64,000 bases of DNA from Thermoplasmata archaeon (GTDB taxonomy: Archaea; Thermoplasmatota; Thermoplasmata; Thermoplasmatales; GCA-001856825). The notes under the pieces were generated by a model that saw nothing but the letters and a program-made list of their open reading frames with translations, did no database searches and had not been told where the DNA came from. The first letter of the stretch is position 1; every line of letters begins with the position of its first letter. Made by a program: the position numbers and the translations under genes. The DNA lies in assembly GCA_021792255.1 (NCBI GenBank), contig JAJYUZ010000001.1:1-64000 (forward strand), read 5' to 3'. Below, in pieces: positions 17,366 through 26,840 of the stretch.

Positions 17366-18202
17366 TTACTTTTTGATCAGGTTGACAATGGAGTCAATGA
17401 CAACATCAGAATCGTTCGGTAGAGGGAGTCTTTCATATTCTATCCCTTCTTTATTGGCATCTCTTCTCAGTTTGTAATCCAGATCATAGAGCACTTCCAG
17501 GTGGTCATAGATAAAGCCTATCGGTACCACTTTTATTTTCCTGAACCCGTTCTCCTTTGCGTAAGAGATGGAATATTCTGGATACGGAGTCAGCCAATTC
17601 GGATGGAACGGTCCCTGACTGTGGTAGATTATTATGTATTTCATGTCTTCTCCAATTACACTCGAGAGCTTCCGGATAGATTCTGGGTATGGATCGTACC
17701 CTTCTATTGGGATGCTGTGAGCTGAAAATGTGAGGACGGAATCTCTTCCTCCCCTGATCCGTTTCTTATAGAAGTCAATCATCTCACTTTCGAAACCTAT
17801 GTCCGTAATTCTGACCAATTTCCTTCCTCTCATCTGTGCTTCCAAAGGGCCAAAATATCCGTCGAAAATGAACTTTGAATATACCGGGAAGAGTGGCACT
17901 TCAAATATCACGTCCTCGTTTATAATTCCCGAGGCCTCTTTGACGGAGGGTCTGCAGTGTTTGGATAGTAGGTACACCTTGTAGCCCTCTCCCTCAAGCT
18001 TATCCGAAACCTTGTCTCTGATGCTTTTCACGATTCGGTTTGAGGGGGTATCTCCACCCACAATATCGAGCTTCAGAAGGTTTTCTCTTATCAGCGAATC
18101 TGGTGGCTCCCTTCCGTGAAGAATGTCCTTCAGATAATCGTGCATCTCCTCTCTTTTTTCCGGAAATCCATAGTACATCAGGACAACGGCCTTATCTTTC
18201 GT
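17366..18202 (-). CDS. hemH: Ferrochelatase, probable ACG start
   Basis: It inserts ferrous iron into the porphyrin, the last step of haem synthesis. Motifs are the catalytic His in SAHSIP, YHSQGP, and the acidic IGFIYDHLEVLYDLD block. The first ATG (18178) would begin inside the first strand and lose AVVLM. In frame upstream, ACG at 18202 gives MKDKAVVLMYYGFPEK, the normal family N-terminus, and a perfect AAGGAGGT lies 8 nt before it inside the end of hemE. No ATG, GTG or TTG exists in frame there. I therefore infer ACG initiation; a sequencing error or an ATG 18178 start cannot be excluded. The length is then 278 aa. Confidence 0.88.
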   Translation of the reverse strand, partial: TKDKAVVLMYYGFPEKREEMHDYLKDILHGREPPDSLIRENLLKLDIVGGDTPSNRIVKSIRDKVSDKLEGEGYKVYLLSKHCRPSVKEASGIINEDVIFEVPLFPVYSKFIFDGYFGPLEAQMRGRKLVRITDIGFESEMIDFYKKRIRGGRDSVLTFSAHSIPIEGYDPYPESIRKLSSVIGEDMKYIIIYHSQGPFHPNWLTPYPEYSISYAKENGFRKIKVVPIGFIYDHLEVLYDLDYKLRRDANKEGIEYERLPLPNDSDVVIDSIVNLIKK

Positions 18203-19163
18203 AGCTGTGAACCTCCTTTTCTACGACTGCCAGCTTTCGCCAGTCAGCCCAAGGTGGCACTCCGTGCCCCAGATTAAAAATATGACCCTTGAAACTCGTG
18301 CCAAGGTCCATAATTCTTTTAGTCTCACGCTTCAAATACTGTTCATCTGCTCCCAATAAGTAAGGGTCCAAATTTCCCTGTACCACGCAGTCTGAGCAAG
18401 TGTTCCTGAATTTGTCAAAACCCATCCTCCAGTCAATTGAATATACGTCCGGCCTTAAATTGAGAAACCTGTGATAAAGATGAGACGAGCCCTCGCTGAA
18501 GAATATGACAGGTTTTCCAATCTCCCTTATTTTTTCTACAAAATACCTCTCATTCTCTTCGAGGTGGTTTTCGTAATAGTTCTCGGATACCCCTCCTAGC
18601 CAGCTATCGAATATCTGAATCACATCTGCTCCGGCTGCGGCTTGAACCCGCGCGAAATCTATGATTTCCTCGGTCAACTTAGAAATAATGCTGTCGTCAC
18701 CAGATGCAAGAATCTCCTTCGTTCTATGATATCCTTCCCTCCCTCCATCATAAAGATATGAAAGGGTAGTGAACGGTCCTCCCACGACTCCGATGATCGT
18801 CTTGTCCGAATGATCATGGATGATCTTCTTTAAACCTGCGGAGAGTGGAGAATAATAATCGAAATTTTCCTTTTCTGCATCCCGAACGGAAATGCCATTC
18901 TCATAGGAAACCTGGTAGCCGAGCTCTGCAAAAGGAATCAAAATGTCCGTGAAAACTACGACAGCATCAGTATTAAAGTGCCCGAGAGGAATGCAAGAAA
19001 CGTCTGCTATTGTATTAGGATCCTTTAAGAGTTCCATAAATGGCTTACCTCCCTTTATGGACTCGTATTCAGGCAAGTATCTTCCAGCTTGTCTCATGAA
19101 CCAAACTGCGTTATCTTTTAATTCGCCTTTGGCGATTTTGATCACTTTCTTAGTTTCTTTCAC
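18192..19163 (-). CDS. hemE: Uroporphyrinogen decarboxylase
   Basis: The 323-aa enzyme makes coproporphyrinogen III from uroporphyrinogen III. The substrate-binding N-terminus is WFMRQAGRYLPEYESI, followed by a conserved Asp in FNTDAVVVFTDILIP and the C-terminal FNLGHGVPPWA. The start is GTG 19163, with CTATAAAT (19183-19190) centred 24 bp upstream, so it is likely leaderless. Its presence together with hemH points to the classical rather than the siroheme-dependent (Ahb) haem route. Its 3' end contains the SD sequence of hemH. Confidence 0.96.
   Translation of the reverse strand: MKETKKVIKIAKGELKDNAVWFMRQAGRYLPEYESIKGGKPFMELLKDPNTIADVSCIPLGHFNTDAVVVFTDILIPFAELGYQVSYENGISVRDAEKENFDYYSPLSAGLKKIIHDHSDKTIIGVVGGPFTTLSYLYDGGREGYHRTKEILASGDDSIISKLTEEIIDFARVQAAAGADVIQIFDSWLGGVSENYYENHLEENERYFVEKIREIGKPVIFFSEGSSHLYHRFLNLRPDVYSIDWRMGFDKFRNTCSDCVVQGNLDPYLLGADEQYLKRETKRIMDLGTSFKGHIFNLGHGVPPWADWRKLAVVEKEVHSYER
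18211..18218 (-). promoter_or_regulatory. Ribosome binding site AAGGAGGT for hemH
   Basis: On the minus strand AAGGAGGT lies in the last codons of hemE. The next 8 nt end exactly at an in-frame ACG (18202-18200). This is the only good SD near the hemH start and argues for initiation at ACG. Confidence 0.6.
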
Positions 19164-19182
19164 GTATCTTTAAGCCGTAGAA

Positions 19183-19190
19183 CTATAAAT
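19183..19190 (-). promoter_or_regulatory. TATA box of hemE
   Basis: CTATAAAT/ATTTATAG is centred 24 bp upstream of the hemE GTG, the spacing of leaderless archaeal transcripts. It also lies just before the TTG at 19194 on the plus strand, but too close to serve that codon. Confidence 0.6.
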
Positions 19191-19321
19191 TGTTTGGAGT
19201 TTTCAAGAAAACAGGGGACGGACCCAGAGAACCGTGATTCTATTATTCCTCTTTCAAATGGTAAATCCTCTCACCAAATAAGCAAGAGGCCCGTGGAGTC
19301 CCGGACTAAGATACATCTTTC

Positions 19322-19329
19322 TTATATAG
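19322..19329 (+). promoter_or_regulatory. TATA box of the hem plus-strand operon
   Basis: TTATATAG is centred about 25 bp before GTG 19350, the codon from which similarity of the radical SAM protein begins. It is the likely promoter for the radical SAM to hemB operon. Confidence 0.5.
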
Positions 19330-19349
19330 AGTTCATTAATTCACGGGTA

Positions 19350-20480
19350 GTGAATCCTCGCCCGATAGATTACAACTCTAAACCAATATTGATTTTCTGG
19401 GAAGCTACAAAGGCGTGTGACCTTGCGTGCAAACACTGTAGGGCATCGGCACTTTTGGAAGCATTGCCGGACGAAATGAACTTGGAGGAATCTCTCTCAT
19501 TTATAGAACAGATAAAGGGGTTCGGAGCCCCATATCCTGTTCTTATCCTGACGGGAGGGGACATAATGAAGAAGAGAGGACTTGAGGAAATCCTGAAGAG
19601 AACCAAGGAACTGGGCATTCCCACGTCAATGTCTCCGAGCGCGACGCCACTATTAAACGAAGCTGCGTTCGAGATGATGAAGAAATATGGGGTAAAATCG
19701 CTCTCACTTAGTCTGGACGGAGCCTCCTCAGATACTCACGATTGGCTGAGGGGCTACCTGGGCACTTTTGATAAGACAGTCAATCTTGCGAGAAGTATAA
19801 TTTCTGAGGGATTCACACTCCAAATCAATACGACAATCTTCAAGAGAAACGTTCACGAGCTACCTCAGCTGCTCAAGATTTTGCTTGAGACCAAAGTCAA
19901 GACGTGGGAAGTGTTTTCGCTCATCAAGACCGGGAGAGGGATTGATAGAGAAGATCTGGATCCTCAAGCGTATGAGGATGTATTCAACTATCTAGAATTT
20001 GCATCAAGATATGGAATTTCTGTCAGGACCGTGGAAGCACCTTTCTTCAGAAGGATTATGATCGAGAGAGAAAAGACGACCTATAATGGTGGCCCGCTTT
20101 ACAGCAAGCTCGTCGAAGAGACTGTGACACTTTTGGGCAGACCAGCCGATAAGACCAAGGGGCATACGAGCCAGACCCGGGATGGCAAGGGCATAATCTT
20201 CGTTGCTCATAACGGGGACGTCAATCCATCGGGATTCCTGCCAATCAAGCTGGGAAGCGTGAAGGAAAAGACAATTTCGGACATCTACAGGAACAACGAG
20301 ACACTGGTCAGTCTAAGGGACTCGAAGAATTTCAAGGGAAGATGCGGAGCGTGCGAATATTCGGACATTTGCGGTGGATCTCGTTCAAGAGCCTATACTT
20401 ATTTTGGGGACATACTCCAGGAGGATCCCCGTTGTGTCTACATACCGGAATCTATGAAAGCTTTGAATAGCGCAAAGTGA
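19350..20480 (+). CDS. Radical SAM/SPASM protein of the TIGR04053/AhbD-like group in the haem operon
   Basis: From GTG 19350 the protein is 376 aa. The radical SAM cluster motif is CDLACKHC (residues 23-30), followed by LTGGD and the SPSATPLL and SLDGASSDTHDWLRG blocks. The C-terminal SPASM-like region CGACEYSDICGGSRSRAYTYF...PRC supplies ligands for an auxiliary cluster. This order matches the TIGR04053 family, related to the haem-synthesis enzymes AhbC/AhbD. A longer frame from TTG 19194 exists, but the extra 52 residues look non-conserved and a TATA box fits 19350. No HemF, HemN or HemZ is seen in the cluster, so I infer that it acts on coproporphyrinogen or a later intermediate. Confidence 0.85.
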   Translation: MNPRPIDYNSKPILIFWEATKACDLACKHCRASALLEALPDEMNLEESLSFIEQIKGFGAPYPVLILTGGDIMKKRGLEEILKRTKELGIPTSMSPSATPLLNEAAFEMMKKYGVKSLSLSLDGASSDTHDWLRGYLGTFDKTVNLARSIISEGFTLQINTTIFKRNVHELPQLLKILLETKVKTWEVFSLIKTGRGIDREDLDPQAYEDVFNYLEFASRYGISVRTVEAPFFRRIMIEREKTTYNGGPLYSKLVEETVTLLGRPADKTKGHTSQTRDGKGIIFVAHNGDVNPSGFLPIKLGSVKEKTISDIYRNNETLVSLRDSKNFKGRCGACEYSDICGGSRSRAYTYFGDILQEDPRCVYIPESMKALNSAK

Positions 20481-20999
20481 TTGAGAAATGCAATGATCGA
20501 CCTACTCTTGCTTACTATCCTCTTTGTTCACGTAATATGTGCGGTTTTTCTCGTCGGGTCATCAATCTTTGTTTGGGTTATTGTGTGGCCTGCTAGCAGT
20601 ATAGCCATGCCTGATGAGAAGCAGAGGACAAGGTTCATGTCAGTAATGGGCAAGAGGTACGCCCTCTGGACAAACATCTCAATACTTCTTCTCACGGTCT
20701 CAGGGATTCTCTTGGTATTTCTTTATCGTCCATCATACATCACCAACTTTTCCTATTCGCTGACGACGCAGTGGGGTTACGTTCTTACCGTCAAGATTGT
20801 GGCAGTGGCTCTGATGTACATTGTTCTTTATGGTAACAATCTTTGGCACGGCAAGATGTTTCCAAAGCTGGCAGAAGCTGGAAAGTTTGAGGAACTGAAA
20901 GAGTTGAGAAAAATATCTCATCTCCTTTCATTTATCACCGTTGGACTTATGGTAGTAATAGTGATAATTGCAGAAGTTTTGGCCGGGGTGTTCTTCTGA
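20481..20999 (+). CDS. Four-TM membrane protein, HemJ/CopD-like, in the haem operon
   Basis: The 172-aa protein has four predicted membrane helices at about residues 7-30, 60-80, 98-118 and 147-170. His in the first helix (LFVHVICAVFLVG), Arg/Lys in GKRYALWTNI, and a second polar helix with WGYVLTVKIVAVALM resemble the layout of HemJ (UPF0093) and CopD-type proteins, which bind haem or metals through helix histidines. It follows the radical SAM gene without a gap (TGA then TTG 20481; ATG 20493 is an alternative start) and precedes hemL. The pathway otherwise lacks protoporphyrinogen oxidase, so a HemJ-like role is inferred, not shown. Confidence 0.65.
   Translation: MRNAMIDLLLLTILFVHVICAVFLVGSSIFVWVIVWPASSIAMPDEKQRTRFMSVMGKRYALWTNISILLLTVSGILLVFLYRPSYITNFSYSLTTQWGYVLTVKIVAVALMYIVLYGNNLWHGKMFPKLAEAGKFEELKELRKISHLLSFITVGLMVVIVIIAEVLAGVFF
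20985..20990 (+). promoter_or_regulatory. Ribosome binding site GGGGTG for hemL
   Basis: GGGGTG lies 5 nt before an in-frame CTG (20996-20998) that overlaps the TGA of the preceding gene as CTGA, mirroring the ATGA overlaps used elsewhere in this window. Confidence 0.5.
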
Positions 21000-22183
21000 G
21001 CAAGAGCGAGGAACTATTTGAAAAGGCAATGAAAGTTTTTCCGAAGGGAGTGAACAGTCCTGTAAGATTCTACCCTCCTTATCCTAGGTTCATCAAGCGG
21101 GGAAAGGGATCGCGGATCTGGGATGTAGACGAAAGAGAGTACGTTGATTTTTTACTCGCGTATGGTCCACTGATTCTGGGGCACTCACCTGAAGCGGTTG
21201 TAAAAAAGATAAAGGAAACGGTCGAGATGGGCACTATTTATGGTGCACCCACCGAGCAGGAGGTGCAGTTTGGGGAATTAATGACCAAGTCCGCCGTTCT
21301 GGATAAAATAAGGATCGTAAATTCTGGAACTGAAGCTACGATGCACGCCATCAGGCTCGCAAAGCATTATACGAAGAGAAAGAAAATTCTGAAGATAGAC
21401 GGAGGCTATCACGGTACTCATCCATTCAATTTTCCTTCAGATTTAGTGGAGTCGGTGGAGTTCAACTCGCCCCAATCGGTCAAAGAGAAACTTTCCGGAA
21501 AAGAGTTCGCGTGTCTAATTCTGGAACCAGTGATGGGAAATATCGGGGTAATACCTCCCGAGATGGGGTTTCTAGAACAGGTGAGAGATATGACCGAAAA
21601 GACAGGCACTCTATTGGTCGCGGATGAGGTCATAACAGGGTACAGAGGGGGTTTCTTCCCATACTATGTTTCCGAGAAGATAGAACCGGATATAGCGACG
21701 TTTGCCAAGATCATAGGTGGAGGTCTTCCCCTAGCGGTATATGGAGGAAGGGAGGAGATCATGAAAGAGGTAAGACCGCAAGGAACATTCTCACAGGCAG
21801 GGACATTTTCCGGAAACCCCGTATCTGTGACTGCTGGACTGGAGACTTTGAAAATATTATCAAATAAAGACTATGCCTCCTTGAAAAAACTCACTGACTT
21901 GGCGGTCAAACAATTATCAGAATCAGAGTTGACAGTAAATTCACAGACCGGAATGCTCTCCATTTTCTTCACCAGAGAAAAAGTCAAGAATGCTTCCGAT
22001 GCATCCAAATCGAGGAAGAAGTTGTACTTCCGACTGTTCGAGAGGGCGTTGGAGGCTGGTATCTATCTTGCTCCTTCCTTTGACGAAACAATTTTCATTA
22101 GCTTTGCGCATAAAGAGAAGGAAGTGAAAGAGTCGTTCCAATTCCTTGGTGAGGAAGCGAAAAAGCTATGGAAGGCATCATAA
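20996..22183 (+). CDS. hemL: Glutamate-1-semialdehyde 2,1-aminomutase, probable CTG start
   Basis: The PLP enzyme turns glutamate-1-semialdehyde into 5-aminolevulinate. The signatures are GVNSPVRFYPPYPRF, ILGHSPEAV, VNSGTEATMHAIRLA and the PLP lysine in ATFAKIIGGGLPLAVYGG. The first ATG (21029) misses the conserved SEELFEKA segment. In frame, CTG 20996 gives MSKSEELFEKAMKVFPKG, the normal family N-terminus, with GGGGTG 5 nt upstream and a CTGA overlap with the previous stop. No ATG, GTG or TTG is available in between. The length is 395 aa with the CTG start. Confidence 0.93.
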   Translation: MSKSEELFEKAMKVFPKGVNSPVRFYPPYPRFIKRGKGSRIWDVDEREYVDFLLAYGPLILGHSPEAVVKKIKETVEMGTIYGAPTEQEVQFGELMTKSAVLDKIRIVNSGTEATMHAIRLAKHYTKRKKILKIDGGYHGTHPFNFPSDLVESVEFNSPQSVKEKLSGKEFACLILEPVMGNIGVIPPEMGFLEQVRDMTEKTGTLLVADEVITGYRGGFFPYYVSEKIEPDIATFAKIIGGGLPLAVYGGREEIMKEVRPQGTFSQAGTFSGNPVSVTAGLETLKILSNKDYASLKKLTDLAVKQLSESELTVNSQTGMLSIFFTREKVKNASDASKSRKKLYFRLFERALEAGIYLAPSFDETIFISFAHKEKEVKESFQFLGEEAKKLWKAS

Positions 22184-23013
22184 GACTTGCAACGAGGGGG
22201 TCAAGACTAGCTCTCAAACAGTTCGAGATAATTTCCAAGACGCTAGAATCTTATGGCGTGAAGTGTGAACCGTTCCTGGTAGAATCGCACGGCGAGCACG
22301 ACACAGAAACACCACTGTACAGCATGAGTGAGCAGGGAGTTTTCGTAAGGAAACTGAACGACAAGATCATCGAAGGGGAGGTAGATGCCGCTGTACACTC
22401 TGCCAAGGATTTACCCAACGAAATTGATCGAGCTCTAAGTATAAGTTATTACTCGAAGCGAGCTGACCCCAGAGATTATTTCATTTCCGGGATGCCTCTG
22501 GCGAAATTTTCAGGAACCGTTGGTTCGAGTTCTATCAGAAGAAAACGATTCATCGGTCAACACAACAGAAATCTGGAATTTTTGAACATAAGAGGTAACA
22601 TAGATACGAGAATCAGAAAGTGGGAACGAGGTGAATTTGGCTCTATAGTCGTGGCAAAAGCTGCGCTCGATCGGTTGGGTCTCACCCCTCCGGGTGAAGT
22701 GATCAGTGAGGAGATATGTCCCCCAGATCCTAACCAGGGATTCATCGCAATTGTTACAGAAAGGGGAAGCAAGTTAGAGTGCACGCTCAAGAAAATACAA
22801 GAACAGGAACAGTTGTGGGAAGCAAGTAAGGAAAGGGAGCTAATGGTCAGGCTTCAACTGGGATGCAATCTCGCTGCAAGCATAAGAGCGATTTACTCTG
22901 AAAAGGTTGTGAAATTTGCGTACGCAGATGAAGAGAGAAGATACGACTTTTCGTTCAAGAAAGAGATTGAAGAGTCCGATGTGAGGAAATTGAGGGATAT
23001 CATTGGGCGTTAG
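22168..23013 (+). CDS. hemC: Porphobilinogen deaminase (hydroxymethylbilane synthase)
   Basis: The 281-aa enzyme joins four porphobilinogens on a dipyrromethane cofactor. Motifs are LATRGSRLALKQ, AVHSAKDLPNE (substrate carboxylate binding and catalytic Asp), SSSIRRKRF, LNIRGNIDTRIRKW, and the cofactor cysteine C233 in LGCNLAASIRA. It is somewhat shorter than bacterial HemC at the C-terminus. It overlaps hemL by 16 bp and hemD by 11 bp. Confidence 0.96.
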   Translation: MEGIIRLATRGSRLALKQFEIISKTLESYGVKCEPFLVESHGEHDTETPLYSMSEQGVFVRKLNDKIIEGEVDAAVHSAKDLPNEIDRALSISYYSKRADPRDYFISGMPLAKFSGTVGSSSIRRKRFIGQHNRNLEFLNIRGNIDTRIRKWERGEFGSIVVAKAALDRLGLTPPGEVISEEICPPDPNQGFIAIVTERGSKLECTLKKIQEQEQLWEASKERELMVRLQLGCNLAASIRAIYSEKVVKFAYADEERRYDFSFKKEIEESDVRKLRDIIGR

Positions 23014-23653
23014 TGTGGCGTACGTTGGCGCTCCGCTGGAAGACGAAATTAGAGGGGTAGTACAGATACCGGTCTTGAAAATTGTTTACTTGGATCTGAC
23101 TGGCCTAAAGAAGATTGATGGAGCGTGCGTATTTACCTCCAAGAGGGGTATCGTCTCTCTGAAGATGTCAAACGTTTCAATAAAGAGCAACAGAATTTAC
23201 TGCATAGGAGAACAAACAGCAGCACACCTGCAGACGCTTTACTCTCTGACGTGCCAGGTTCCCAAGGTTCAGAATTCTGATGGCCTCGCTGAAATGCTGA
23301 TATCGAAAGAGAAGTCGATAAGAATAATCAGCAGTGATCAGATCTCAGAGAAATTCCTGAAGAAACTCAGGGCAAATGACATCTCGGTGAGGCATACTGT
23401 TGCTTACAGGATAGAAGAAAATGTTGACGTGGACTATCATCTCCTTGAAGGTGCGAAAAGGATTCTCATAGGTTCTTCGAGATCTTTTGAAATCCTCAAC
23501 AAGAACGCCAAGGGAACCTTGAAGGGGAAGAAACTGTATGCCATAGGCAAACCGACGGAAGAAACGATGATTTCATTGGGCTTCAGTCCCACAGAGTGCT
23601 TCGAATCTCCTGACATTGAAAGTGTCTTGGCTCTGCTCATCACGAAAAGGTAA
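23003..23653 (+). CDS. hemD: Uroporphyrinogen-III synthase
   Basis: The 216-aa protein closes and inverts ring D of hydroxymethylbilane. HemD sequences are poorly conserved; here the assignment rests on the bilobed pattern (VFTSKRGIVSL in the first lobe, ILIGSSRSFEIL in the second, GEQTAAHLQTL and IGKPTEETMISLGF repeats) and on its place between hemC and hemA. The start is probably TTG 23003, overlapping hemC. Confidence 0.88.
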   Translation: MGVSVAYVGAPLEDEIRGVVQIPVLKIVYLDLTGLKKIDGACVFTSKRGIVSLKMSNVSIKSNRIYCIGEQTAAHLQTLYSLTCQVPKVQNSDGLAEMLISKEKSIRIISSDQISEKFLKKLRANDISVRHTVAYRIEENVDVDYHLLEGAKRILIGSSRSFEILNKNAKGTLKGKKLYAIGKPTEETMISLGFSPTECFESPDIESVLALLITKR

Positions 23654-23689
23654 TTATATCGACCGCGTTTCAGTACAAGGTGCGATAAA

Positions 23690-24913
23690 TTGGAGAAGGG
23701 TGGTATATTCCTCGTAAAAGTCACTTATGGGGATTTGGGTTCGTTGTTTTACTCGACCATCAAGGACATCCAACTTGAAAGGGTCTATGACTACTTAAGG
23801 AAGAACGAGAGAATAGAGGAGGCGCTCGTACTTTGGACCTGCAATAGGTTCGAGATATACTTTTATCCCGGTGACAGAGAGACCGTAGAGTTTGTGCAAG
23901 ATTACGTCAAAGACAGGTCTCTGAAGCACAGTGTGGCCCACGGTATGGATGCGGTCAAGCATCTATTCCTTGTTTCCGCTGGACTCGACTCGATGGTCAT
24001 CGGAGAGAACGAAATACTCGCACAGATCAGGGAGTCCTGGGAGACTTCAAAGCAGAAAGGTTTCTCCGGAACCAATCTGAATGTGATACTAAAAAAAGCA
24101 CTCGAAGTGGGTAGAAAGGCTAGAAGAGAGAATGGAAATGGACAGCACGCGAGGAGTGTCGCAGGTGAGGCGCTGGACGAAATAGAGATTTTGCCTGGAC
24201 AGAAAGTGCTTGTCATTGGTGCGGGCGATTTGGGAACACAGATATCCAGCTACCTCTCGAGAAGAGGGATCCGCTTTTCGATAAGCAACAGGACTTCTGG
24301 AAAGCCGACGGAGATTTCAAAGGCGTTTGGAGCAGAGATCGAAGAATTTGACAAGAAGAAGTGGAAGAAATACGACGTGATTATAACGGCCACAAAGTCT
24401 AATGACGTCATTTTGGGGAGAAAGGACGTAGCGAACTCAAAGATCAAGACGATTCTGGACCTGGGTGTTCCACCAAACGTGTCAGAGGATCTTCCAAAGA
24501 GCATCAAGCTGGTCAACATGGAACTGCTATCCAAGACCATCAAATCAAGGAACGATAAGACGAATGACTATGCAACCAAGAGTCTCAAGACTGTCAATGA
24601 AGAATATGATAAGTTTGCACAAAAAATCATGAATGTGGACAAGGAAGATCTACTGAAAAAGATATTCGATTATTCGAACGAGGTCATCGAAGAAGAGATG
24701 AGATACTTTGAGAGGAAGAGCCACAACACAGAGAATCACGCCCAGATCAGAAAGGGCCTCGAATCGACCAGAAACAAACTTCTGGGCTTCGTAATCAATG
24801 GTATAAAGAATGCGAAAGATATCAGATCATCAGAGACCATTACCAATATGGAGATGATATTGAACGAAAACTTTTCCAGATATGAGGCTAAGAAGGTTAA
24901 GAAAGTCACCTAG
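23690..24913 (+). CDS. hemA: Glutamyl-tRNA reductase
   Basis: The 407-aa NADPH enzyme commits glutamyl-tRNA to tetrapyrroles. The catalytic Cys is C51 in WTCNRFEIYF. It is followed by HLFLVSAGLDSMVIGENEIL, the Rossmann motif VLVIGAGDLG, and a C-terminal dimerisation helix region. Start TTG 23690 has AAGGTG 7 nt upstream. It overlaps hemB by 32 bp. HemA is usually the feedback-controlled step. Confidence 0.95.
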   Translation: MEKGGIFLVKVTYGDLGSLFYSTIKDIQLERVYDYLRKNERIEEALVLWTCNRFEIYFYPGDRETVEFVQDYVKDRSLKHSVAHGMDAVKHLFLVSAGLDSMVIGENEILAQIRESWETSKQKGFSGTNLNVILKKALEVGRKARRENGNGQHARSVAGEALDEIEILPGQKVLVIGAGDLGTQISSYLSRRGIRFSISNRTSGKPTEISKAFGAEIEEFDKKKWKKYDVIITATKSNDVILGRKDVANSKIKTILDLGVPPNVSEDLPKSIKLVNMELLSKTIKSRNDKTNDYATKSLKTVNEEYDKFAQKIMNVDKEDLLKKIFDYSNEVIEEEMRYFERKSHNTENHAQIRKGLESTRNKLLGFVINGIKNAKDIRSSETITNMEMILNENFSRYEAKKVKKVT

Positions 24914-25838
24914 AATCAGGGAAGTTTTTGCCGATACGGAGATAAGGACGAATAAGCTGATTATGCCAATGTTCGTCGACGAGAATCTGTCGAAACCAGA
25001 AGAAATAAGGAACATGCCAGACATTTACCGATTTCCACTAAGAAAGCTTGTCGACAAGGCAAAAGAGTACGACGGTCTGGGAGTGAAATCGATCCTGCTC
25101 TTCGGGGTGCCAAAGCACAAGGACAGTACTGGTTCAGCATCCTACGACAAGGATGGAATAGTTCAGAGAGCAGTAAGGGAAGTGAAGAAGGAGACGGACT
25201 TAGCGGTATTCACGGATCTCTGTCTGTGCGAATACACGGACCACGGTCACTGTGGAGTAATTAAGGGTAGGAAAATCGATAACGATTCAACGATCGAAAT
25301 TTACGCCAAAATCGCAAAGAGTTATGCGGAGGCAGGTGCGGACGGGGTCGCACCTTCGGGAATGATGGATGGGCAGGTCAAGGGAATCAGGAAGGAGCTC
25401 GATTCGTCTGGTTTTGAGGAAACGCTGATAATGGCTTACAGTGCAAAGTTCTCAAGCTCGATGTATGCACCATTCAGGGAAGCAGTTTTTTCGACTCCAT
25501 CTTTTGGGGATAGACGAACGTATCAGATGGGTTACTCTGGAATCAGGGAGGCGATACGAGAAATGGAACTCGATGTCGAGGAAGGAGCGGACGCAATTAT
25601 GGTCAAACCAGCGCTATTCTACCTGGACATCATAAGAGAGGCAAGGAACAGTTTTCTTCTTCCCATCGCAGCGTACAATGTCAGTGCCGAATACTCTATG
25701 ATCAGGTCCGCGGCCAAGAACGGCATCATAGATCTTGACTCCGTAGTCGATGAATCTCTTAACGCAATATTCAGGGCTGGAGCGGATATTGTCATAAGCT
25801 ATTTCACGGAGTACTTGATGAAAAGACGTAAAAGTTAG
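24882..25838 (+). CDS. hemB: Porphobilinogen synthase (5-aminolevulinate dehydratase)
   Basis: The 318-aa enzyme condenses two 5-aminolevulinates. Both Schiff-base lysines are visible, in MAYSAKFSSSMYAPFREA and in ADAIMVKPALFYLD. The active-site metal loop CLCEYTDHGHCG is the three-cysteine zinc type rather than the Mg-only type. It is the last gene of the plus-strand hem operon. Confidence 0.96.
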   Translation: MRLRRLRKSPRIREVFADTEIRTNKLIMPMFVDENLSKPEEIRNMPDIYRFPLRKLVDKAKEYDGLGVKSILLFGVPKHKDSTGSASYDKDGIVQRAVREVKKETDLAVFTDLCLCEYTDHGHCGVIKGRKIDNDSTIEIYAKIAKSYAEAGADGVAPSGMMDGQVKGIRKELDSSGFEETLIMAYSAKFSSSMYAPFREAVFSTPSFGDRRTYQMGYSGIREAIREMELDVEEGADAIMVKPALFYLDIIREARNSFLLPIAAYNVSAEYSMIRSAAKNGIIDLDSVVDESLNAIFRAGADIVISYFTEYLMKRRKS

Positions 25839-25860
25839 TTGCTTTCGAAACTCAAATTTA

Positions 25861-25869
25861 TTTATATAT
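25861..25869 (+). promoter_or_regulatory. TATA box of the radical SAM-glycosyltransferase operon
   Basis: TTTATATAT is centred about 25 bp before ATG 25890, fitting a leaderless mRNA. It also supports 25890 over an upstream in-frame codon at 25839. Confidence 0.65.
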
Positions 25870-25889
25870 TGACATTATTTCAACAGATA

Positions 25890-26840
25890 ATGAGGACAGT
25901 CATCTGGAACATAGACTTCAAGTGTAATCTTCTTTGCAAGGGGTGCAACGCGTTTGAGGGGAACGTTCTCTTCCCTAAAGACAAGATTGAAGATTTCACA
26001 GACGAAATGAAGTACAACAAGGTCAAGATCGTTTCGGTGACTGGAGGAGAACCTACCCTCCACCCTGACCTACCGAGAATCCTCAAGACACTGAAGGAAC
26101 ACAAATTCACCACTCATATTGCAACGAACGGCACTAACAAATTCGTTCTGAGCAAGATATACCCTTACCTGGATGCGGCCACAATCAGCCTGGACAGTCA
26201 CCATCCCGAAATGCACAACGAGTACAGGGGGAGGAAGATTTTCGATGTCGTTGTGGAGAGCATGAAGTATCTGAAGCCGAGAGTGAAGGTTCTCACTTCC
26301 AATATCCTAGTCACAGACTTCAATTATGACAAAATGGGAGAATATGCCACTTACGTGAACAAGAAACTTGGACTCCCAGTCTCGATGTGCTTCCCGGATA
26401 ACAGTGCGTACTATTACGAGAAAGTACCCGTTCAGAATGATCAGATAAAGGAAGCATTCAATTTCGCATTTGAGAATTACAAGAACTACAAATTTGGTAA
26501 CACCAAGACCTACTATAAGGAGGCAGTGGACTGGCTGGAGAAGAGGGACGTGCAGCAGTGCAGAGCGGGTGAGGAAGTGTTCTACGCAGACTATCACGGG
26601 GACGTCTACCCGTGCTTCTATAAGACCACAAAGAAGCTGAACCAGAACAGAAAGTGGGACGACTACAACAACACCTGCAACGACTGTTTTATCCAGTGTT
26701 TCAGAGAGCCCTCAATGAAGAATTTCTTCGAGCAGGCCAAGCTAGTAAGTCAGATATATCTTTATAATCGTAGGCATATTGGAACGACGACGCTCAATGC
26801 GAATAGCCCTATGCAGCGATACATACCACCCGATAGCTGA
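25890..26840 (+). CDS. Radical SAM protein with C-terminal auxiliary-cluster cysteines, unknown substrate
   Basis: From ATG 25890 the protein is 316 aa and begins MRTVIWNIDFKCNLLCKGC, so the CX3CX2C motif sits within the first 20 residues. VSVTGGEPTLHPDLPRIL is the SAM-binding GGE block, and ISLDSHHPEMHNEYRG follows. Near the C-terminus, cysteines in QQCRAG, VYPCFYK and TCNDCFIQC resemble a SPASM or twitch cluster. It shares an operon with a glycosyltransferase and a UPF0104 membrane protein, so a lipid- or glycan-modifying role is a guess from context. I do not recognise the exact family. Confidence 0.8.
   Translation: MRTVIWNIDFKCNLLCKGCNAFEGNVLFPKDKIEDFTDEMKYNKVKIVSVTGGEPTLHPDLPRILKTLKEHKFTTHIATNGTNKFVLSKIYPYLDAATISLDSHHPEMHNEYRGRKIFDVVVESMKYLKPRVKVLTSNILVTDFNYDKMGEYATYVNKKLGLPVSMCFPDNSAYYYEKVPVQNDQIKEAFNFAFENYKNYKFGNTKTYYKEAVDWLEKRDVQQCRAGEEVFYADYHGDVYPCFYKTTKKLNQNRKWDDYNNTCNDCFIQCFREPSMKNFFEQAKLVSQIYLYNRRHIGTTTLNANSPMQRYIPPDS

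Follow-up and report, generated by a model that had tools for sequence, protein, structure and literature searches.

A radical SAM protein and a four-helix CopD-superfamily protein as candidates for the two missing oxidations of haem synthesis in Thermoplasmata

The haem gene cluster and its missing late enzymes

The window analysed here, a stretch of 64,000 nucleotides from a Thermoplasmata archaeon (assembly GCA_021792255.1, contig JAJYUZ010000001.1), contains a hem cluster at 17366-25838, in which two minus-strand genes, hemH and hemE, diverge from seven plus-strand genes. The latter encode, in order, a radical SAM protein (rSAM), a membrane protein with four transmembrane helices (4TM), and HemL, HemC, HemD, HemA and HemB. 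A preliminary description of this DNA had placed HemA, L, B, C, D, E and H in the cluster, with the radical SAM and four-helix genes opening the plus-strand operon before hemL; family models recovered all seven enzymes, and the gene order was confirmed. The features are listed below.

17366..18178, minus strand: hemH, coproporphyrin-type ferrochelatase (CpfC), by its match to CpfC structures, Tyr3 and the lack of a lip segment
18192..19163, minus strand: hemE, uroporphyrinogen decarboxylase (PF01208, 226 bits; TIGR01464, 236 bits)
19350..20480, plus strand: TIGR04053 radical SAM/SPASM protein (482 bits), proposed AhbD-type Fe-coproporphyrin III decarboxylase
19416..19439, plus strand: CX3CX2C radical SAM cluster motif (CDLACKHC), invariant in 56/56 homologues
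20343..20435, plus strand: CX2CX5CX20C auxiliary cluster motif (CGACEYSDIC ... C), with the same spacing in 56/56 homologues
20493..20999, plus strand: 4TM, membrane protein of the CopD superfamily, proposed to replace HemY as coproporphyrinogen III oxidase (PF05425, structure model, exchange with HemY)
20529..20531, plus strand: codon of His13 in helix 1 of the 4TM protein, a possible haem ligand, invariant in 24/24 members
21029..22183, plus strand: hemL, glutamate-1-semialdehyde aminomutase (TIGR00713, 400 bits; NF000818 above cut-off)
22168..23013, plus strand: hemC, hydroxymethylbilane synthase (TIGR00212 above cut-off)
23003..23653, plus strand: hemD, uroporphyrinogen III synthase (PF02602, 72 bits)
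23690..24913, plus strand: hemA, glutamyl-tRNA reductase (TIGR01035, 202 bits; PF05201)
24882..25838, plus strand: hemB, porphobilinogen synthase (NF006762 above cut-off; PF00490, 446 bits)

The radical SAM frame is open over 19194-20480, the alignment of its homologues begins near 19365, and GTG at 19350 is a plausible start codon; the 4TM frame is open from 20481, which gives a gene at 20481/20493-20999. The hemH frame is open upstream of the ATG at 18178 (KAVVLMYYGFP), in step with its homologues, and translation probably begins a little before this ATG, at a codon other than ATG. In the closest relative found, Thermoplasmata archaeon KMA_Bin16 (L210), the operon has the same genes in unchanged order; the radical SAM proteins are 71% identical and the 4TM proteins 68%. 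A second radical SAM gene (HpnH/MftC-like, DUF3463) lies directly after hemB at 25839-26840, a position that is kept in L210 with 75% identity. A homology scan of 1.20 of the 1.59 Mb of the genome found a haem-copper oxidase subunit I and two CtaB-like genes, and the organism therefore needs haem.

Searches with curated models spanned the whole assembly (1.587 Mb in 11 contigs, 93.6% complete), in which neither HemF nor the HemN_C domain (PF06969) gave a match and HemY gave nothing above cut-off. HemJ (PF03653) was found neither in this assembly nor, above cut-off, in any of 60 genomes (0/60), and HemG and HemQ were found neither in the assembly nor in the L210 genome. The possibility that classical late enzymes are encoded elsewhere in the genome was rejected on these negative searches, so that the gap in coproporphyrinogen and protoporphyrinogen oxidases pointed out in the preliminary description extends to the whole assembly, and HemQ, which it had listed among the enzymes to be sought, is likewise missing. 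The Ahb (siroheme) pathway was rejected as well, as the radical SAM protein lacks an AhbC-like partner: no second NirJ/AhbC-like radical SAM protein scores above 42 bits in the genome, against 213-228 bits for AhbC-like proteins elsewhere, and the known siroheme route is therefore incomplete here. A similar gap has been described for Thermoplasma and Picrophilus, which have hemE and hemH and lack the late oxidases, and whose route was called unclear (Storbeck 2010, PMC3004389); for haem in Cuniculiplasma, a mechanism not yet known was suspected in a 2017 paper (PMC5498576).

Ferrochelatase type and the radical SAM protein

The ferrochelatase of the window matches CpfC structures over its full length (E about 1e-23), with human ferrochelatase matching the C-terminal part only. 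The proximal residue is Tyr in Firmicutes, Phe in Actinobacteria and Met in the human enzyme (PMC10427985). The window protein has Tyr3 at this position, and in place of the lip segment it has two residues, compared with 21 in E. coli HemH, which gives it both marks of CpfC, a proximal Tyr or Phe and no lip segment. A clear HemH is found in 45 Thermoplasmata genomes, and 41 of these also have HemQ, whose substrate is coproheme. HemQ is present in 34 of the 38 that have HemH together with a TIGR04053-type protein, and in all seven HemH genomes lacking the radical SAM protein (7/7). Because HemH is of the CpfC type and HemQ is so frequent among HemH genomes, the haem route of the window organism is most likely coproporphyrin-dependent, and the oxidations then needed are those of coproporphyrinogen III to coproporphyrin III and of Fe-coproporphyrin III to haem. 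HemE and a CpfC-type HemH are present in the genome; HemY/CgoX and HemQ/ChdC are absent. Since it has neither HemY nor HemQ, the pathway would be a variant with substitutes. HemE, an oxidation, iron insertion of the CpfC type and decarboxylation as the last step would be common to it and the coproporphyrin pathway of Firmicutes and Actinobacteria. However, a CopD-family 4TM protein would take the place of HemY/CgoX, and a radical SAM protein that of HemQ/ChdC.

The radical SAM protein belongs to TIGR04053, with 482 bits against a curated cut-off of 395, and has both cysteine motifs, as the preliminary description had said. The next families are AhbD at about 260 bits, NirJ2 at 171, NirJ at 147 and AhbC at 139. 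Its structure model (pLDDT 93.8) is similar to SPASM enzymes, PqqE and SuiB among them, and the protein has a SPASM domain instead of the HemN_C domain (PF06969) of HemN. A CX3CX2C motif with a C-terminal CX2CX5CX20-38C motif has been described for AhbD (PMC10452713), and a similar motif for NirJ (PMC10548856); the AhbD pattern is found in the window protein and in 56/56 homologues. Judged by these family scores, the protein is closest, among characterised families, to AhbD, whose substrate is Fe-coproporphyrin III, and not to HemN. As it falls short of the curated cut-off of AhbD itself (TIGR04545, 260-261 against 500 bits), the window protein is not filed as AhbD and is only proposed to work like it.

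In genomes without HemH, a TIGR04053-type gene adjoins a NirJ1/AhbC-like gene (L043, L052, L070, L212, L256, L268), the arrangement expected of AhbD. The window protein thus resembles AhbD in being a radical SAM/SPASM protein with both cysteine motifs whose relatives have AhbC-like neighbours in genomes lacking HemH, but it is itself linked to HemE, HemH and 4TM/HemY, and its Fe-coproporphyrin III would be expected to come from a ferrochelatase, not from siroheme. A HemY-rSAM-hemH triad occurs at five Cryobacterium loci, in a Dormiibacterota MAG (L235) and in L276, and a Micrarchaeota MAG (L282) has the order hemE, hemH, hemC, hemA, HemY, rSAM, hemL, hemB; HemQ was not found in the genomes of L276 and L282. 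The five Cryobacterium genomes carry an extra hemH outside this module, mostly directly beside hemQ. HemQ is absent, though HemH and the radical SAM protein are present, in the window genome, L210, G018, G036 and G102. No HemH genome lacks both HemQ and TIGR04053, a complementarity that is not significant (naive p about 0.5), and the radical SAM protein is the sole known candidate decarboxylase in only a few lineages, since most Thermoplasmata keep HemQ.

This part of the proposal is partly anticipated in the literature, where an AhbD-type decarboxylase in coproporphyrin clusters has already been proposed: some bacteria have ahbD at one locus with hemY/hemH/hemQ according to one review (PMC10548856), and AhbD can terminate the coproporphyrin route in some organisms according to another (PMC7242693). 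The oxygen-independent counterpart of HemQ in that route has been called unknown (PMC10965808).

A TIGR04053-like paralogue of about 505 residues, scoring 256-289 bits, was also seen (G010:C1:653925, G053:C1:376513, G133:C7:175898, G148:C104:3117), with extra copies in G038, G117, G103 and G083; it occurs as well in family f2, which itself has no HemH, HemQ or 4TM gene.

Exchange of the four-helix protein with HemY

The 4TM protein of the window matches CopD (PF05425) at 33.8-33.9 bits, narrowly above the gathering cut-off of 32.1. At E 0.1, 24/24 members of its family match PF05425 and 0/24 match HemJ (PF03653). HemJ proper was therefore rejected as its identity on family models. A plasmid search for HemJ sequences gave weak CopD-type matches only. 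The AlphaFold model (pLDDT 89.5) has four long helices, the first of which carries the invariant His13, in agreement with the four-helix protein and helix-1 histidine described earlier; a structure search of the PDB with this model gave no match at E <1. The invariant residues of the family are His13, Gly22, Ser24, Phe26, Pro33, Arg45, Thr46, Leu67, Gly71, Tyr113 and Arg139. Of the resemblance to HemJ/CopD that had been suggested, the CopD part is thus borne out, but the HemJ part does not hold beyond the level of the superfamily. HemJ is known to replace HemY, as the 4TM protein would here. The 4TM protein shares with HemJ/PgdH2 the four membrane helices and a conserved histidine in helix 1; it differs in lacking the PF03653 match and in its predicted substrate, coproporphyrinogen III.

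Co-occurrence across Thermoplasmata, which the preliminary description had proposed to tabulate, was compiled for the 38 genomes with HemH and a TIGR04053-type protein, the latter being below the curated cut-off or a split match in five. A 4TM orthologue is present in 26 of these and HemY in the other 12, with both in 0/38 and neither in 0/38; 4TM orthologues score at least 137 bits and HemY at least 175 bits, and the next hits are at 75 and 36 bits. The two genes exclude each other and occupy the same operon slot, as seen in rSAM-4TM-hemH (L046, L050, L051, L056, L059) and rSAM-HemY-hemH (L044, L045), and in rSAM, hemH, HemY (L071, L073). On the tree of the radical SAM protein, the partner switches seven times, three of these between well-supported sister genomes (L053/L061, L058/L057, L065/L062). 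Treating genomes as independent gives p < 1e-9 for the exclusion, which overstates the case; the sign test corrected for the tree gives p = 0.06, because only five independent supported swap pairs exist.

The radical SAM and 4TM genes adjoin each other, and often hemH too, in several archaeal phyla, although in most Thermoplasmatales the genes are scattered. Outside Thermoplasmata, where the exclusion of HemY and 4TM was observed within clusters only, the 4TM gene adjoins rSAM in Nitrososphaerota (L284, L286), Micrarchaeota (L261), Parvarchaeota (L265) and a Marsarchaeota MAG (L272), and in Calditenuaceae (L223, L234) a divergent CopD-like four-helix gene lies between hemE and rSAM. In Calditenuis fumarioli, whose genome has no PF00762 ferrochelatase, a small CbiX-type chelatase (L234:8243-8761; PF01903, 41 bits) follows hemA-C-D-B-L-E-4TM-rSAM and may be the iron chelatase of a coproporphyrin-type route.

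Seven genomes with HemH and HemQ (G028, G054, G058, G064, G097, G144, G147; L185-L187, L191-L194) have neither HemY nor a 4TM orthologue, and no TIGR04053 protein above cut-off. In these, the step may be dispensable or another coproporphyrinogen oxidase may exist, and hence a further enzyme of this kind may remain undiscovered.

Two observations concern the HemQ operons. At G112:C17:26809-27015 the only hemH sequence of the operon is a fragment with a TAG inside it, and the genome has its intact copy in the rSAM-HemY-hemH module. Next to the end of the HemQ operon that carries hemE/hemH lies a convergent gene for a conserved protein of 559-603 residues (L188:9593-11341, L189:8444-10168, L190:8116-9840, L192:2801-4480, L201:3071-4882); no NCBIfam model matched the copy in L188 at E 1e-20.

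A proposed coproporphyrin route and its alternatives

The radical SAM and 4TM proteins are the strongest candidates for the missing pair of steps, because their genes adjoin each other, often together with hemH, and because 4TM exchanges with HemY; from the sequence, the pair most likely supplies the two missing oxidations of haem synthesis. The reading that we favour, with a probability of roughly 0.7, is that coproporphyrinogen III is oxidised to coproporphyrin III by the 4TM protein, converted to Fe-coproporphyrin III by HemH and then to haem b by the radical SAM protein. HemA, L, B, C, D and E, all of established families, would make coproporphyrinogen III, which the 4TM protein would oxidise in the membrane in place of the flavoenzyme HemY/CgoX. 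The electrons would probably pass through a bound haem or quinone to the respiratory chain, perhaps from a haem at His13 to a quinone. Such a transfer by way of bound haem or quinone has been proposed for HemJ. A similar role, with electron flow towards quinone, has been proposed for CgoN (YtpQ) of Priestia megaterium, an oxygen-independent coproporphyrinogen III oxidase; however, CgoN is a soluble monomeric FAD protein, unlike the membrane-bound 4TM protein (PMC10965808). After iron insertion by HemH, acting as a coproporphyrin ferrochelatase, the radical SAM protein would turn two propionates of Fe-coproporphyrin III into vinyls by decarboxylation in the manner of AhbD, in place of HemQ/ChdC, using a 5'-deoxyadenosyl radical and with the auxiliary cluster presumably accepting the remaining electron. 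This final step would require neither O2 nor H2O2, a possible reason for the retention of HemQ alongside TIGR04053 in many genomes.

The preliminary description had assigned both missing steps to the pair. Its role in haem synthesis and its candidacy stand on the adjacency and the 4TM/HemY exchange, but the order and the substrates are not supported. The order in question, in which a HemN-like radical SAM protein converts coproporphyrinogen III to protoporphyrinogen IX, a HemJ-type four-helix oxidase yields protoporphyrin IX and HemH adds the iron, would suit a pair that sits in a hem operon without the classical enzymes and a 4TM protein within the wider CopD superfamily. It is weakened by the coproporphyrin type of HemH, by the coproheme-acting HemQ in most genomes with the same gene set, by a radical SAM protein that is nearest to AhbD and has a SPASM fold unlike HemN, and by the lack of any HemJ match in the 4TM family, and we regard it as quite improbable. 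It is also unlikely that the radical SAM protein is the coproheme decarboxylase and the 4TM protein a mere accessory, such as an electron acceptor or a carrier of haem or porphyrin, with coproporphyrinogen being oxidised spontaneously or by another enzyme. CopD-family proteins do have other roles, the cofactor of the 4TM protein is only putative, and the seven HemH and HemQ genomes with neither HemY nor 4TM indicate that the oxidation can be achieved otherwise; yet a strict exchange with HemY in the same slot, sister genomes included, is what an isofunctional enzyme predicts, and not an accessory.

A role of the radical SAM protein after haem b, modifying haem or another tetrapyrrole instead of decarboxylating coproheme, appears very improbable to us. 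A second decarboxylase is not strictly needed in most hosts, which have HemQ, and some Thermoplasmatales copies of the radical SAM protein evolve fast (L063, L064, L069). However, the genomes with HemH and no HemQ (that of the window, L210, G018, G036, G102, L276 and L282) would then be left without a decarboxylase, and AhbD is the nearest family.

Beyond the favoured order of steps, a wider reading, which we hold at about even odds, combines a new CopD-family class of four-helix coproporphyrinogen III oxidases, possibly haem-based and quinone-linked, with an oxygen-independent coproheme decarboxylase, in an oxygen-free coproporphyrin pathway of Thermoplasmatota, Nitrososphaerota, Micrarchaeota and Parvarchaeota; in Calditenuis, CbiX would replace the ferrochelatase. 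A CopD-family four-helix protein as coproporphyrinogen III oxidase appears to be new. The earlier statement that such a route has not been described for Thermoplasmata holds in the literature searched, with most subscription papers outside it: no paper there proposes a CopD-family coproporphyrinogen oxidase or such a solution for Thermoplasmata. If true, the proposal would give a central pathway one more enzyme family, a new one. The exchange of 4TM and HemY in one operon slot makes both the haem synthesis of Thermoplasma and Picrophilus and the oxygen-independent counterpart of HemQ testable with single genes.
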